DNA from: Candidatus Krumholzibacteriota bacterium
GTDB taxonomy: Bacteria; Krumholzibacteriota; Krumholzibacteriia; Krumholzibacteriales; Krumholzibacteriaceae
Direction of reading: 5' to 3'
Length of the DNA: 51,668 nucleotides
Assembly (NCBI GenBank): GCA_030609325.1
Contig: JAUWCL010000025.1
Coordinates: forward strand, 1 to 51,668
Shown here piece after piece: positions 21,717-27,522 of the stretch. The notes under the pieces were generated by a model. That model did no database searches and was not told where the DNA came from. It was given only the letters and a program-made list of their open reading frames with translations. The translations under genes were made by a program, and so were the position numbers. How positions within the stretch are numbered: the stretch's first letter is position 1; each line of letters starts with the position of its first letter.

Positions 21717-22877
21717 TTGGCCGGAGAAGGACCGCACAGGATAAAAATCTGCGTGATGCTGCCGAGGCTCAGGATCGGCGGCGCCGAGATGCAGGTCCTA
21801 GGCCTTCTCGCCAACATCGACCGCCTGCGGTTCGAGCCTCACCTCTGTGTGTTCACACGTGGCGACGCGAAGATGGAGGAGGCGGCGAGACGCAACGTCG
21901 AATCGTTTACCTGCCTCGATTTCCGCTGGAGAAAGCTGCCTGTCGTATTCCCCCGGCTCGTACGCTACCTGAAGAGGGAGAGATTCGATATCCTCCACGC
22001 GCATCTCGCCATGGCCGATTCCTTCGGCCGCATAGCGGCCAGGTTCGCGGGCGTACCCGTGCTGATGACCACCGAGCACGGGAAGCATCTCTGGAAGGGG
22101 AGACTCTACCTGATGATGGAGAGGATACTCGCACGGTCGACCGACATGCGGATATGCGTTAGTGACGATATAGCCCGCATCCGCGTCAATCGCGAGAGCA
22201 CTCCGGATGAGAAACTTGTGGTCATACCCAACTCCGTCGATCCGGCCCCCTTCCGCGGGGCAGTAAAGGGACGCGCGACGGTCATGGCCGAATTCGGGTG
22301 GGATGTCGAGGATCCCCTCGTCGTCACAGTCGGGAGGCTTGTTGTCGCGAAGGCCTATCCGTCCCTTGTCGAAACGGTTTCCTTCCTGAAGGAGGAGTTC
22401 CCGTCGGTCCGGTGCCTGATAGCCGGCGACGGGCCCTGCCGCGAAGAGATAGAGGAGGCGGTGGAGAGATACGGGGTGAGCGGCAACGTGACAGTCCCCG
22501 GAGCGCGAAGGGACATACCAGACCTGCTGTCGGCCTGCGACGTATTTGTACTCTCGTCGATAAGGGAGGGGCTGCCCGTCTCCCTTCTCGAGGCGATGGC
22601 GTCCGGCTGCGCGATAGCGGCGACGACGGCGGGAGGGATATCGGAGGCTGTAAGGGACGGCGAGAGCGCCCTGCTCGTGCCGCCGGACGAACCGAGGGCC
22701 CTCGCCGGGGCGATCGGCAGGCTGCTGGGAAACAGGGAGTTCGCCGCCCGGTTCGGGGAGAACGCCTCGCGAGTAATAGACGAGAGGTACAACGCGGCGG
22801 CGGTCACCAGGAAGATCGAGGATATCTACACGCGGCTCGCTGCCGCGGTGAGAGGTGAGGACGATCGGAGCGCCTGA
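21717..22877 (+). CDS. GT4 family glycosyltransferase
   Basis: 386-residue GT-B glycosyltransferase (GT4), cytoplasmic or membrane-associated, transferring a nucleotide-activated sugar in surface polysaccharide or lipid synthesis. N-terminal Gly-rich acceptor loop LRIGGAEMQV, central LVVTVGRLVVAKAYPSLVE, and the nucleotide-sugar E-x7-E motif in SSIREGLPVSLLEAMASG. The start is TTG at 21717 with GGAGG ten bases upstream. Its 3' end overlaps the deacetylase start by 23 bases, so the two are co-translated. First gene of a cluster that runs through the ligase-PanD fusion to the site-2 protease. Confidence 0.9.
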   Translation: MAGEGPHRIKICVMLPRLRIGGAEMQVLGLLANIDRLRFEPHLCVFTRGDAKMEEAARRNVESFTCLDFRWRKLPVVFPRLVRYLKRERFDILHAHLAMADSFGRIAARFAGVPVLMTTEHGKHLWKGRLYLMMERILARSTDMRICVSDDIARIRVNRESTPDEKLVVIPNSVDPAPFRGAVKGRATVMAEFGWDVEDPLVVTVGRLVVAKAYPSLVETVSFLKEEFPSVRCLIAGDGPCREEIEEAVERYGVSGNVTVPGARRDIPDLLSACDVFVLSSIREGLPVSLLEAMASGCAIAATTAGGISEAVRDGESALLVPPDEPRALAGAIGRLLGNREFAARFGENASRVIDERYNAAAVTRKIEDIYTRLAAAVRGEDDRSA

Positions 22878-24126
22878 AGTCTGCAGGAACCGCAATCCCG
22901 GCGATGATTCCGGGAAAGGTCCCGGGAAGAAGCGCGGCATCCCCGTTGTGATGTATCACGGCGTCGGGCCCGAACGGCCCGGCTGGATCTGGAACCACCT
23001 GCTCACCCCGCTCGACGTGTTCGAGGGGCAGATGAAGGCCCTCAGTGACAACGGCTGGACGACGATCTCGCTCGCTCAGCTGCATGCCCATGTATCCGCC
23101 GGAGAGCCCGTTCCTGAAAAACCCGTTGTCCTCACCTTCGATGACGGATATCTCGACAATTACGTCCTTGCCTGGCCGATACTTAGGAAGCACGGTCACC
23201 GGGCGGTCATCTGGATGACGACCGATTTCATCGATCCCTCTCCCGATTCGAGGCCGGCGCTGGACAGCGGGATCGAGGGGGGCGCCTGGAAATCGGGGAT
23301 GCCCCTCTGCGGTTTTCTCTCGATGGCCGAGATGAGGCTGATGGAGGCTTCGGGGCATATCGAGATCCAGAGCCACGCGAAGACTCACACGTGGTACCCA
23401 TCCGGCCCGAGGATCGTCGACTTTCACAGGCCGATCGGCGTCGAGGGATATGCGCCTCCGCCATGGTTCGCGTGGAACGCCTTTCCCGAAAGCAAGTACG
23501 AGTACATGTCACGGGGCAGGGAGGACGAGATCCCCTGCGGCACGCCGATTTATCAGCACTCCAAGTCGCTCGAGGCGCCGAGGTATTTCCCCGATCCCAC
23601 GCTCTCCGAAAGGTTTGTCCTGCATGTCATCGAGAACGGCGGCGACAATTTCTTCGCGAGAGACGGATGGCGGAGCGAGCTCGAGAGGATAGCGGCGGAG
23701 AACCCTCCGTCGGCCGACAGTGTGGAAACACAGGAGGAGTACCGCGAAAGGGTCCTGTTCGAGCTGACCGAATCGAAGCGGATACTGACAGGGGGGCTTG
23801 GCCACAGCGTCGATTTTCTGTGCTGGCCGGGAGGCGGCAGGAATCCGGAGGTCCTCGAGCTGGCGAGGGAGGCGGGGTATCTCGCCACGACGACCCACTA
23901 CCAGGTTATGGATAAAAGGAACGTCCCGGGGCAGGACCCGTCGGAGATCGGGAGGATCGGCAACGGCTCGCCGTGGGTCTGGAGGGGGAAGCTTTTCCGC
24001 AGGACCGATCCGGGATTCTTCATATCGATCCTCGAAAACTTCGCCGGCGGTCAAAATACGGTTTGGACGATGAGATCCTATAAATTAAAATACATTTTGC
24101 GCCATTATCTTACCGGCACGAGATGA
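22855..24126 (+). CDS. Polysaccharide deacetylase (NodB/CE4-like)
   Basis: 423 aa. NodB-type TIM-barrel core: PVVMYHGVG at the N-terminus, the metal/base motif VVLTFDDGY, and a histidine motif IEIQSHAKTHTW. The family removes N- or O-acetyl groups from sugars of cell-wall or surface polymers. A long insert (about residues 185-285) between the His motif and the late FLCWPGGGRN motif is larger than in minimal CE4 enzymes. No signal peptide is visible, so it may act on a cytoplasmic lipid-linked precursor. Starts at GTG 22855 inside the glycosyltransferase gene. A perfect 10-bp hairpin follows its stop. Confidence 0.85.
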   Translation: MRTIGAPEVCRNRNPGDDSGKGPGKKRGIPVVMYHGVGPERPGWIWNHLLTPLDVFEGQMKALSDNGWTTISLAQLHAHVSAGEPVPEKPVVLTFDDGYLDNYVLAWPILRKHGHRAVIWMTTDFIDPSPDSRPALDSGIEGGAWKSGMPLCGFLSMAEMRLMEASGHIEIQSHAKTHTWYPSGPRIVDFHRPIGVEGYAPPPWFAWNAFPESKYEYMSRGREDEIPCGTPIYQHSKSLEAPRYFPDPTLSERFVLHVIENGGDNFFARDGWRSELERIAAENPPSADSVETQEEYRERVLFELTESKRILTGGLGHSVDFLCWPGGGRNPEVLELAREAGYLATTTHYQVMDKRNVPGQDPSEIGRIGNGSPWVWRGKLFRRTDPGFFISILENFAGGQNTVWTMRSYKLKYILRHYLTGTR

Positions 24127-24187: not shown

Positions 24188-25909
24188 ATGTTCCCGTCCC
24201 TTCCCGAATCACTTGTAAGAAACGTTGTGTATCCCGTATACAGGGGATTCCGCAAGGACAGGGTCCTCGACATCCTCGACGAGCTTGAACACAACCAGTT
24301 CCTTCCCGAGAGAGAGATAGAGGACCTGAAGTGGCGGAAGCTGTCCGTCCTGCTCGAGGCGGCCGGACGCCACGTCCCGTATTACAGGGATCTTTTCGAG
24401 CGCGAGGGGATCGACCCGGCCGCTTTCGAGAGCCCGGTGGACATGGCGGCGATACCGTTCCTGACGAAGGAGGTAATCCGGGGCGAGAAGAGGAAGATGA
24501 TCTCGAAGGACCCGCTGCGCAGGGGGTATCCCTCGAGCACGGGAGGATCGATGGGGGAGCCGCTCCATTTCTGGTGCGACACCGCCGCCGGCCCGGTACG
24601 CCGTGCGAACACGATGAGGGGATACCGCTGGACGGGATCCGATATAGGCGGAAGGCAGGCGATGCTGTGGGGATTCCATCTCGACAGGCCGCTGAAGGAT
24701 CGGATCTCCGAGGGCGCGAAGAGCTTCTTCAACAACATTATGACCCTTTCCTCGTTCGACATGACCCCGGAGACGATGAGGAGATACGCGGCGAAGCTCA
24801 GGCGGTTCAGGCCGTCCATCGTGATCGGCTACCCTTCCGCGCTGACGGTCTTTTCCGAATTCTGCCGGGGCGCTGGCGTTCGCCTGCCATCTCCGAAGGC
24901 CGTGATAACGGGAGGCGAGAGGCTCTTTCCGCACCAGAGGGATCTGATCGAGGAGGCCTTCCACGCCGACCTGTTCGACCGCTACGGAAGCAGGGAGTTC
25001 TCCACCGTCGCGCACGAATGTTCCGAGCACAAGGGGCTGCATGTCTTCAACGACCTCTTTCACGTCGAGGTTATTCACGAGAGCGGGCGCGCGGCGCAGA
25101 GCGGCGAGATCGGGGAACTGGTCATCACCGACCTCTCCAATCTATACATGCCGTTCATAAGGTACAGGACGGGCGATCTCGCCATGCCGACGGAGAGGAA
25201 ATGCCCGTGCGGCAGGGGCCTCCCGCTGCTCGAGAGGATAGAGGGGCGCTCATTCGACTCGATCGTTACCCCCGAGGGAAAGAAGGTCGGCGGCTTCTTC
25301 TGGACCTGGCTGTCCAGGGCCGTACCCGGCATCGACAGGTTCCAGATCGAGCAGAGGGACAGGGCCGGCATCATCTTCCGTATCGTTCCGGGCGAGGGGT
25401 GGAGGGACGATCATATGGAGGTTCTCGCCGGAAAGATACGCGAGAACTGCTGCGAGAATTTCAGGATCGATTTCCAGGTGGTCGACGACATCCCGCTGAC
25501 GCCGGCGGGAAAGGCGAAATTCATCATCTCGAACATCGAGGAGAGGCTCGTCATCAAATCGAAGATCCACAAGGCTCACATAAGCGGCGACGCGCCGGAG
25601 GAGAACGATTGCCTGCGGATCGACGCGAAGCTGATGGAATTGAGCAACGTGGCTGCCTTCGAGAAGATCCTCATAGTCAACGCCACGAGCGGGGCCAGGC
25701 TCGAGACCTTCGCACTCGAAGCGGAGAGCGGGAGCGGGGACATCATTGCCTGCGGGGCGGTTTCGAGGCTCTGCAGGCCGGGAGACGAGATAAGCGTCAT
25801 GGCATTCACCTGGTCGACCGGGGAATCGGGTGATTTCAGCAATATCCTCGTCGACGAGGAGAACAGGTTCGTCAGATACCTCACCGAGAAGGCCGGCGAC
25901 AGGATCTGA
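24188..25909 (+). CDS. PaaK/CapK-type adenylate-forming ligase fused to a PanD-like domain
   Basis: 573 aa. Residues 1 to ~450 form a PaaK/CapK-like adenylating enzyme: SSTGGSMGEP (116-125), FDRYGSREF (263-271), RTGD (327-330) and a Cys pair in KCPCGRG. Such enzymes activate a carboxylate as acyl-AMP, often then a thioester. Residues ~452-563 align without gaps over the first 77 positions with aspartate decarboxylase PanD. Using E. coli PanD numbers, Lys9 (K459), His11 (H461), Arg54 (R504) and Thr57 (T507) are kept. The self-cleavage pair Gly24-Ser25 is Asp474-Cys475, Tyr58 is Phe508 and Asn72 is Cys522, so this copy probably cannot form the pyruvoyl group. A true PanD follows. I know of no described fusion of this kind. 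Confidence 0.8.
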   Translation: MFPSLPESLVRNVVYPVYRGFRKDRVLDILDELEHNQFLPEREIEDLKWRKLSVLLEAAGRHVPYYRDLFEREGIDPAAFESPVDMAAIPFLTKEVIRGEKRKMISKDPLRRGYPSSTGGSMGEPLHFWCDTAAGPVRRANTMRGYRWTGSDIGGRQAMLWGFHLDRPLKDRISEGAKSFFNNIMTLSSFDMTPETMRRYAAKLRRFRPSIVIGYPSALTVFSEFCRGAGVRLPSPKAVITGGERLFPHQRDLIEEAFHADLFDRYGSREFSTVAHECSEHKGLHVFNDLFHVEVIHESGRAAQSGEIGELVITDLSNLYMPFIRYRTGDLAMPTERKCPCGRGLPLLERIEGRSFDSIVTPEGKKVGGFFWTWLSRAVPGIDRFQIEQRDRAGIIFRIVPGEGWRDDHMEVLAGKIRENCCENFRIDFQVVDDIPLTPAGKAKFIISNIEERLVIKSKIHKAHISGDAPEENDCLRIDAKLMELSNVAAFEKILIVNATSGARLETFALEAESGSGDIIACGAVSRLCRPGDEISVMAFTWSTGESGDFSNILVDEENRFVRYLTEKAGDRI

Positions 25910-26012: not shown

Positions 26013-26360
26013 ATGAAACGCCTTCTGCTCAAATCGATGATTCTCGGGGCCACCGTGACGCAGGCCGACCTGCGCTATGTGGGAAGCATCACAATCGACG
26101 AGGACCTGATCGACAGGGCCAATATGAGCGAACACGAGAATGTACACGTCGTTGACCACACCAACGGCCACAGGCTCCAGACCTACGTCATCAAGGGGGA
26201 GAGGGGAAGCTGTGTGATAGGGATGAACGGCGCAGCCGCCCACCTCATAAAGGAGGGCGACGAGATCGACATCATGGCCTACAGCTGGTCGTCGGACGAT
26301 GCGCGCCCAATGCTGATAGAGCTCGATTCAGGCAACAGGTTCAAGGGTTACGCAGGCTGA
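26013..26360 (+). CDS. panD: Aspartate 1-decarboxylase PanD with altered N-terminal active-site residues
   Basis: 115 aa. PanD makes beta-alanine from aspartate for pantothenate, using a pyruvoyl group produced by self-cleavage between Gly24 and Ser25. Here RYVGSITID keeps Tyr22, Gly24 and Ser25 at the same positions, and GHRLQTYVI (Arg54, Thr57, Tyr58) and MNGAAAH (Asn72) are intact. However, the usual KxH of the first strand (KSKIH in M. tuberculosis, Lys9 and His11) is Met9 and Leu11 in KSMIL. Those lost residues are the ones preserved in the upstream fused domain. ATG 26013 gives the family length; GGTGG lies 8 bases upstream. The M50 protease follows after 16 bases. Confidence 0.9.
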   Translation: MKRLLLKSMILGATVTQADLRYVGSITIDEDLIDRANMSEHENVHVVDHTNGHRLQTYVIKGERGSCVIGMNGAAAHLIKEGDEIDIMAYSWSSDDARPMLIELDSGNRFKGYAG

Positions 26361-26376
26361 CCCGCCGGGATGATCG

Positions 26377-27522
26377 ATGTTCAAAAGAAATCTCAGGCTC
26401 TTCACTCTCCAGGGCATACCGGTCGAGATCAATATCTCCTGGCTTTTCCTGCTTGCGCTTGTCACGTGGTCGTTCGCCACCGGGTTCTATCGTGAATCGT
26501 ACCCGGGCCTCTTTACGTCCGCCGCCAGATGGGCGATGTCGCTGCTCACCGCTCTTCTGCTCTTCGTGTCGATACTGATCCATGAGTTCAGCCACTCGAT
26601 CGTCGCTTCGAGAGGCGGCCTGCCGATCAAACAGATAACGCTGTTCATGTTCGGCGGCGTCGCCCAGATGGGCCACGAGGTCGACGAGCCGTCGCTTGAG
26701 CTGCGAATGGCGGCGGCGGGCCCGCTGATGACCCTTGTCCTCGTCGCTATGTTTCTGGGGGCGGCGGTCCTGGCGAGGGGCGTCCCGTTCCTCTCGATCC
26801 TTCTCGGTACGGTCGGCGCGATTAACATCGGGATCTTCATATTCAACATGGTGCCGGGATTCCCCCTCGACGGGGGGAGGATATTGAGGGCGATCATCTG
26901 GAAGAGGACCGGCGACGTCAGGAAGGCGACGCGGATCGCGACCGGTGTGGGAAAGGTGTTTTCCTGGGTCCTCGTGGCGGGAGGAGTCTTCAACTTCCTT
27001 GTTTACGGTAACCTCGTCAGCGGGATCTGGATGGTGTTCATCGGGCTCTTCCTCAGGCAGGCAGCCGAGAGAAGCTACAGACAGATCGTCTGGAAGAAAT
27101 CGCTGGCAGAGGTGAAGGTCGGAGACGTGATGCGCCGGGAGACGACGGCCGTCGAGCCTTCGACCGATCTCGAGACGCTCGTCGGGGAGTTCTTCCTGCG
27201 CTTTCACCGGGACAGCCTGCCGGTCGCGGCAGGAGGGATGCTGCTCGGGATCGTATATCTCGATGATGTCACCGCGATAGACCGCGGCGCGTGGGCCGGC
27301 ATCTCCGCCGCCGATATTGCGAAGAAGATCGATCCTTCATCGGTCGCGAGGCCGGAAGATCCGGCCTGGATGCTTTTCGGGCCCCTGATGCAGCAGGGAC
27401 GCGGAATCGTCCCGGTAGCCGGACCAGACGGACGTCTGGCCGGTGTTGTGACGAGAAGGGACTATTCGGCCCTTCTCGAGGTGATGTCTTCTGTAGGGTC
27501 CCGGGACCGCAGCCCCGGATGA
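26377..27522 (+). CDS. Site-2 (M50) intramembrane zinc metalloprotease with CBS domains
   Basis: 381 aa, SpoIVFB-like. Membrane helices contain HEFSH (69-73), the zinc-binding HExxH, and the second motif FNMVPGFPLDGGR (NxxPxxxxDG). About six helices are followed by a CBS-domain pair (~240-375; VGDVMRRETTAVEP, LAGVVTRRDYSALL), which may sense adenine nucleotides. Such proteases release membrane-anchored regulators, for example after anti-sigma cleavage. A start at 26377 follows PanD by 16 bases, so it is probably in the same transcript. Its substrate is not evident. It converges with a small minus-strand ORF 2 bases after its stop. Confidence 0.9.
   Translation: MFKRNLRLFTLQGIPVEINISWLFLLALVTWSFATGFYRESYPGLFTSAARWAMSLLTALLLFVSILIHEFSHSIVASRGGLPIKQITLFMFGGVAQMGHEVDEPSLELRMAAAGPLMTLVLVAMFLGAAVLARGVPFLSILLGTVGAINIGIFIFNMVPGFPLDGGRILRAIIWKRTGDVRKATRIATGVGKVFSWVLVAGGVFNFLVYGNLVSGIWMVFIGLFLRQAAERSYRQIVWKKSLAEVKVGDVMRRETTAVEPSTDLETLVGEFFLRFHRDSLPVAAGGMLLGIVYLDDVTAIDRGAWAGISAADIAKKIDPSSVARPEDPAWMLFGPLMQQGRGIVPVAGPDGRLAGVVTRRDYSALLEVMSSVGSRDRSPG

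Follow-up and report, generated by a model that had tools for sequence, protein, structure and literature searches.

The aspartate decarboxylase PanD is pyruvoyl-dependent and makes beta-alanine, from which vitamin B5 is built. Its active site is located between adjacent subunits, where Arg54 of the neighbouring subunit touches the ligand and the exchange R54A leaves the enzyme inactive (PMC6969166). Both Lys9 and Arg54 are lent by the other subunit, and Pyr25, Thr57 and Tyr58 belong to the subunit that carries the pyruvoyl group (PMC3314653). Enteric bacteria possess the PanD-PanZ (PanM) system, in which PanZ is a CoA-binding protein of the acetyltransferase fold (PMC4410942, PMC3473359). Enzymes that involve a paralogue have been described in trypanosomatids, whose S-adenosylmethionine decarboxylase needs a dead paralogue, the prozyme, which relieves autoinhibition (PMC5201418). 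Another example is the trypanosomatid deoxyhypusine synthase, which also needs a dead paralogue, its heterotetramer being made up of one impaired and one inactive copy (PMC3663545). Neither a heteromeric PanD nor a PanD fused to a PaaK/CapK-type ligase is described in the open-access papers that were searched.

The locus presented here lies on a contig of a Candidatus Krumholzibacteriota bacterium (JAUWCL010000025.1), of which the whole analysed stretch of 51,668 nucleotides is called the window. It encodes a PanD-like domain fused to a ligase, termed F, and a stand-alone PanD, termed P, which starts 103 bases 3' of the fusion reading frame and had been overlooked in the earlier reading of this DNA. 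Residues of the PanD parts are given in Escherichia coli PanD numbering, to which 450 is added for residue numbers in the fusion, and f1 and f2 denote the two families in which F and P occur together. The features are as follows.

21717..22877, forward strand: GT4 glycosyltransferase, upstream (neighbour in f1 only)
22855..24126, forward strand: PgaB-type polysaccharide deacetylase, directly upstream of the fusion (neighbour in f1 only)
24188-25909, forward strand: ligase-PanD fusion of 573 aa, intact (single reading frame)
24188..25540, forward strand: PaaK/CapK-type adenylate-forming ligase part, residues 1-451 (motifs, NCBIfam, match to a solved PaaK)
25547..25906, forward strand: fused PanD-like domain F (Pfam PF02261, alignment, AlphaFold model and PDB fold match)
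25562..25570, forward strand: F codons for K459 and H461, the Lys9 and His11 equivalents, predicted trans half-site (alignment)
25607..25612, forward strand: Asp-Cys of F (D474-C475) replacing the cleavage pair Gly24-Ser25 (alignment)
26013..26360, forward strand: stand-alone PanD P, 115 aa (TIGR00223 panD, Pfam, alignment)
26037..26045, forward strand: P codons for Met9 and Leu11, at positions that are Lys and His in nearly all further PanDs (alignment)
26377..27522, forward strand: M50 site-2-type protease containing CBS domains, separated from P by 16 bases (kept in both families)

The fused reading frame and its ligase part

The original prediction, which proposed an adenylate-forming ligase joined to a PanD-like domain, is borne out by the single intact frame of 573 codons and by the Pfam Asp_decarbox match at residues 454-560 (75 bits against a cut-off of 25, E=4.6e-21). 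The remaining part is also found to be a PaaK-type ligase, though Pfam AMP-binding gives no match to it. It contains the P-loop SSTGGSMGEP (116-125), YGSRE (266-270), RYRTGD (325-330) and the A10 lysine in GK (441-442), together with ECSEH and CPCG cysteines of zinc type. Against NCBIfam, residues 1-451 match DVU1553_fam_AMP (4.8e-40) and PaaK (1.5e-24), with every NCBIfam cut-off far above the score; for the phenylacetate-CoA ligase PaaK, TIGR02155, the score is 86 bits and the equivalog cut-off 646. The closest solved relative is the PaaK structure 4r1l (3.8e-29). Among 20 full-length fusions, the P-loop, YG-E, RYRTGD and A10 lysine are intact in 18 and lost in those of genomes G007 and G004. 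An AlphaFold model of the full-length fusion from four sequences reached a pLDDT of 42 and was set aside.

Two PanD copies with complementary residues

The fused domain has the PanD fold and not an unrelated one, since its AlphaFold model, built from 14 sequences, is confident (pLDDT 91.5) and finds a solved PanD chain in each of the 40 top-ranking PDB matches, with E down to 1e-10 and a probability of 1.00. Among solved PanDs, its sequence matches 2c45 (1.3e-11), and it aligns without a gap to E. coli PanD positions 3-91, as had been claimed for a shorter stretch. For the panD equivalog TIGR00223, F stays below the cut-off (48.9 bits against 106). P exceeds both family cut-offs, with 118.3 bits against 106 for TIGR00223 and 128.7 bits against 25 (1.2e-37) for Pfam. 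Apart from F and P, the genome of the window has no PanD match.

An alignment on E. coli numbering brought together 23 F and 22 P sequences with 10 ordinary PanDs taken from sister families, and was compared with 84 other PanDs, a set drawn from diverse bacteria, from plasmids, from virus-assigned contigs and from E. coli. In the comparison PanDs, position 9 is Lys in 81/83 and position 11 is His in 83/84, and Met9 occurs in none of the 84. F and P are mirror images in this respect, Lys9 and His11 being present in F only and the Gly-Ser cleavage site in P only. The F of the window has Lys9 (K459), His11 (H461), Arg54 (R504) and Thr57 and lacks Tyr22, Gly24-Ser25, Tyr58 and Asn72; the predicted Asp-Cys at 24-25 and the changes of Tyr58 and Asn72 are thus confirmed by the alignment. 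Across all F, Lys9 and His11 are found in 23/23 and Arg54 in 22/22 (one sequence is masked at 54), position 24 is Asp in 23/23, position 25 is Cys in 19, Ser in two and Gly in two, and Tyr22, Tyr58 and Asn72 are missing from nearly all. The cofactor-side residues Gly73, Ala74 and mostly Thr57 are retained. Eighteen positions, Lys9, His11 and Arg54 included, are invariant among the F sequences, which are far more diverged, at a mean identity of 0.59, than those of P, at 0.80.

In P, Tyr22, Gly24, Ser25, Arg54, Thr57, Tyr58 and Asn72 are retained in 22/22 sequences, position 9 is always Met (22/22), and position 11 is Leu in 20 and Met in two. Ile86, which is near the active site and conserved in most PanDs, is replaced by Asp in 22/22. 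The P of the window thus differs from other PanDs by Lys9 to Met, His11 to Leu and Ile86 to Asp. These P genes are annotated as ordinary panD in their genomes; judged by their residues, the products are probably inactive alone.

It had further been argued that F does not form the pyruvoyl cofactor. F is indeed likely to lack it, because Asp24 is invariant and position 25 varies between Cys, Ser and even Gly; the argument from the Cys at 25 and the loss of Asn72 went too far, as the E. coli PanD mutants S25C (1pyu) and N72A (3tm7) are processed according to their PDB titles.

A PanD copy on Bradyrhizobium sp. 187 plasmid p187_1 (L091, 4992-5345) has Gln9, Phe22 and Phe58 with Gly-Ser intact, and is possibly degenerate or altered. 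On a plasmid of Streptomyces sp. NBC_00826 (L088, 212-7049), panD lies in a cluster that also encodes an acyl carrier protein along with an amino acid adenylation protein and that may serve to load beta-alanine. At the plasmid sites that were examined, PanD is encoded by an ordinary single gene.

A probable split active site

The best explanation, which we consider probable, is that F and P form an obligate mixed oligomer, a PanD with a split site in which P provides the cofactor half and F the binding half, with beta-alanine as product. An ancestral panD would have been duplicated, each copy then keeping one part of the active site. P retains the half matured to pyruvoyl (Tyr22, Gly24-Ser25, Thr57, Tyr58, Asn72 and Gly73-Ala75), and F the residues contributed by a PanD subunit to the adjacent one (Lys9, His11 and Arg54). 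The obligate mixed oligomer is predicted because the residues are partitioned in this way and because Lys9 and Arg54 cross between subunits in solved PanDs. A homomer of F or of P would each lack one half, and only a mixed oligomer would restore the full site. Its simplest form would be a tetramer alternating as F-P-F-P, with each P pyruvoyl opposite an F whose Lys9 and Arg54 bind aspartate, so that two sites would be complete and two dead. His11 would likewise be in trans, judging from the nearby Lys9, with which it shares a strand; the His11 of F may also assist the maturation of P. The E. coli PanD H11A structure 1pt1 is listed as unprocessed in the PDB. We infer hetero-oligomerisation, the stoichiometry, that neither subunit works alone, and aspartate as the substrate.

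Some residues count against a split site. Arg54 is kept in 22/22 P, where it would be superfluous in a strictly alternating ring, and F retains Gly73, Ala74 and mostly Thr57 of the cofactor side. Arg54 in P and Gly73-Ala74 in F, which depart from the split, may have a structural role. The invariant exchange of Ile86 to Asp near the active site of P also speaks against it.

Conserved F domains beside decayed ligases

The ligase part would travel along with F as a fused and usually intact adenylating enzyme. In the fusions of G007 (L049, C50) and G004 (L047, C204), the ligase has lost its C-terminal subdomain, the A10 lysine and, in the P-loop, the serines and the glycine. The ligase evolves fast in these two (tree branches of 0.67 and 1.56), and its identity to other fusions has dropped to 0.50 in G007 and 0.41 in G004, against about 0.58. 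Their F domains (0.61 and 0.59) are as conserved as elsewhere and retain Lys9, His11 and Arg54. Because the ligase has decayed in two genomes where F is normally conserved, F is not retained for the sake of the ligase, and its role is independent of ligase activity. Close stand-alone ligases, which stop at the point at which the PanD domain would start, exist in G007 (L077), G006 (L078) and G013 (L079), so that the ligase, in turn, does not need F; the separate copy of G007 is intact. The copies in G013 and G007 are located near glycan-type genes.

These observations bear on the original proposal that F tethers the ligase to PanD. In its fuller form, P would be a self-sufficient homotetramer in which Lys9 and His11 are replaced by other means, and F a pseudo-subunit that docks the ligase, which might perhaps use beta-alanine or regulate PanD. 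The fusion architecture itself hints at docking, and P is above the TIGR00223 cut-off and keeps Arg54 with all cofactor-side residues. Nevertheless, all P have Met9 and Leu11 or Met11 where nearly all PanDs have Lys and His, F never loses Lys9 and His11 though it is more diverged than P, and F survives where the ligase has decayed. We therefore regard this reading as unlikely: that F joins PanD was probably right, and the tether role is at odds with the two decayed ligases.

The same genomes speak to the idea that F is a functionless, degenerate leftover of the duplication, retained through its fusion to a useful ligase. The loss of the cleavage site, Tyr58 and Asn72 would fit such decay, but the 18 invariant positions with Lys9, His11 and Arg54, the two genomes in which the ligase decays and not F, and the close PanD-free ligases, which can do without the domain, make this hardly credible.

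Distribution and origin

The survey covered 80 genomes of Krumholzibacteriota and, more widely, 387 genomes. Twenty-one genomes, all from f1 and f2 of one order of the phylum, carry both F and P, and no further pair was found outside that order among the 387. A chance match or an artefact is ruled out by the presence of both genes in 21 genomes. They are linked in 21/21, lying 34-182 bases apart in 20 and 1171 in G018, where an apparently opposite-strand gene of about 1.1 kb stands between them (L060 4990-6165). One genome has only F and one only P (G017 and G021), in both cases at contig edges. G010 carries a second fusion beside a glycosyltransferase (L053, C148:59994-61679), which has no P gene of its own. 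In the other families of the class, one ordinary PanD is found in f4, f7 and f8 and none in f3, f5 and f6. Among the 387 genomes, a second PanD match turns up in eight that do not belong to the order; these second matches are not adjacent in the manner of F and P and show no reciprocal residues, and two of them are partial or very weak.

In the tree, F (support 100/100) and P (97/93) are sister clades; they group together (100/97), separately from the phylum's ordinary PanDs, and F has a long stem. One duplication before the split of f1 and f2, followed by complementary loss, would explain this topology, and the partition within each clade is a single ancestral event kept over time, not many independent ones. 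At the DNA level, F and P of the window share only one 22-base match of 77%; the duplication is therefore old, and a recent duplication in the window was rejected.

Genomic context and pathway

The module shared by f1 and f2 consists of F, P and the M50 protease. PanB and PanC are present in G000, the genome of the window, and PanC (PF02569) is also found in all f1 and f2 genomes except G018, which is 62% complete; the presence of PanC and PanB rules out the ligase as a replacement of PanC. The PLP-type decarboxylase PF00282 was not found by the profile survey in G000 nor in most f1 and f2 genomes. It is present in nearly all genomes of the PanD-less families f3, f5 and f6, which suggests that it is a different source of beta-alanine there. 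Because G000 has PanB and PanC, no other PanD and no PF00282, the F-P pair should be functional, and from this gene content it is probably the source of beta-alanine for pantothenate in G000. In the split-site reading, the product would go chiefly to PanC.

An alternative is that F and P decarboxylate a substrate other than aspartate, for instance the substrate or product of the ligase, in a glycan or secondary pathway and not for pantothenate. The exchange of Ile86 to Asp in 22/22 P would be in line with another substrate, as would be a glycan pathway with the glycosyltransferase and polysaccharide deacetylase that adjoin the pair in f1, and with the similar genes near the close PanD-less ligases of G013 and G007. 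However, F retains both aspartate-binding residues, Lys9 and Arg54, the glycan genes are not beside the pair in f2, and G000 has PanB and PanC and no other beta-alanine enzyme among the kinds searched, which together make this quite improbable.

Everything about the reaction of the ligase we infer, and beta-alanine is one possibility for the compound that it activates. It is a tentative and rather doubtful extension of the split-site reading that F and P are an obligate aspartate decarboxylase whose beta-alanine is adenylated by the ligase borne on F and attached to CoA, a carrier or a glycan. If so, the complex would be a self-assembled decarboxylase-ligase machine, in which beta-alanine from the composite site is passed to the ligase.

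Comparison with known systems

The ligase of the fusion has the core motifs of the PaaK/CapK-type ligases 4r1l and 2y27, among them the P-loop, RYRTGD and the A10 lysine, and differs from them in its C-terminal PanD-like domain and in NCBIfam scores below the cut-offs. With the PanDs of E. coli, Mycobacterium tuberculosis and Helicobacter pylori, the pair shares the fold, the gapless alignment, the total of active-site residues and the position of the site between subunits. Known PanDs are homotetramers with all residues on every subunit, whereas here the residues are split over two genes, one copy being fused to a ligase. If the split-site reading is true, this would be, as far as found in the open-access papers searched, the first PanD that depends on subunits of two PanD types. 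It would also be a clean natural example of a homomer turned into an obligate heteromer, in which duplication and complementary loss have shared out one active site. The function of Lys9 and His11 in trans would then be open to direct testing, and the pair could provide a two-component switch for the production of beta-alanine.

Reliance of PanD on a second protein, as predicted here, is also a feature of the PanD-PanZ system; PanZ, unlike F, is not a paralogue of PanD, nor is it known to contribute residues to the active site. The deoxyhypusine synthase resembles the predicted F-P complex as a heterotetramer of impaired and inactive paralogues, but is another enzyme, of another organism and fold, and is not fused to a second enzyme. 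S-adenosylmethionine decarboxylase with its prozyme is likewise a pyruvoyl decarboxylase that needs a dead paralogue, a dependence that for F and P is predicted from their residues; it has an unrelated fold and no enzyme fusion, and F, in contrast to the prozyme, is predicted to contribute residues that bind the substrate in a common site.
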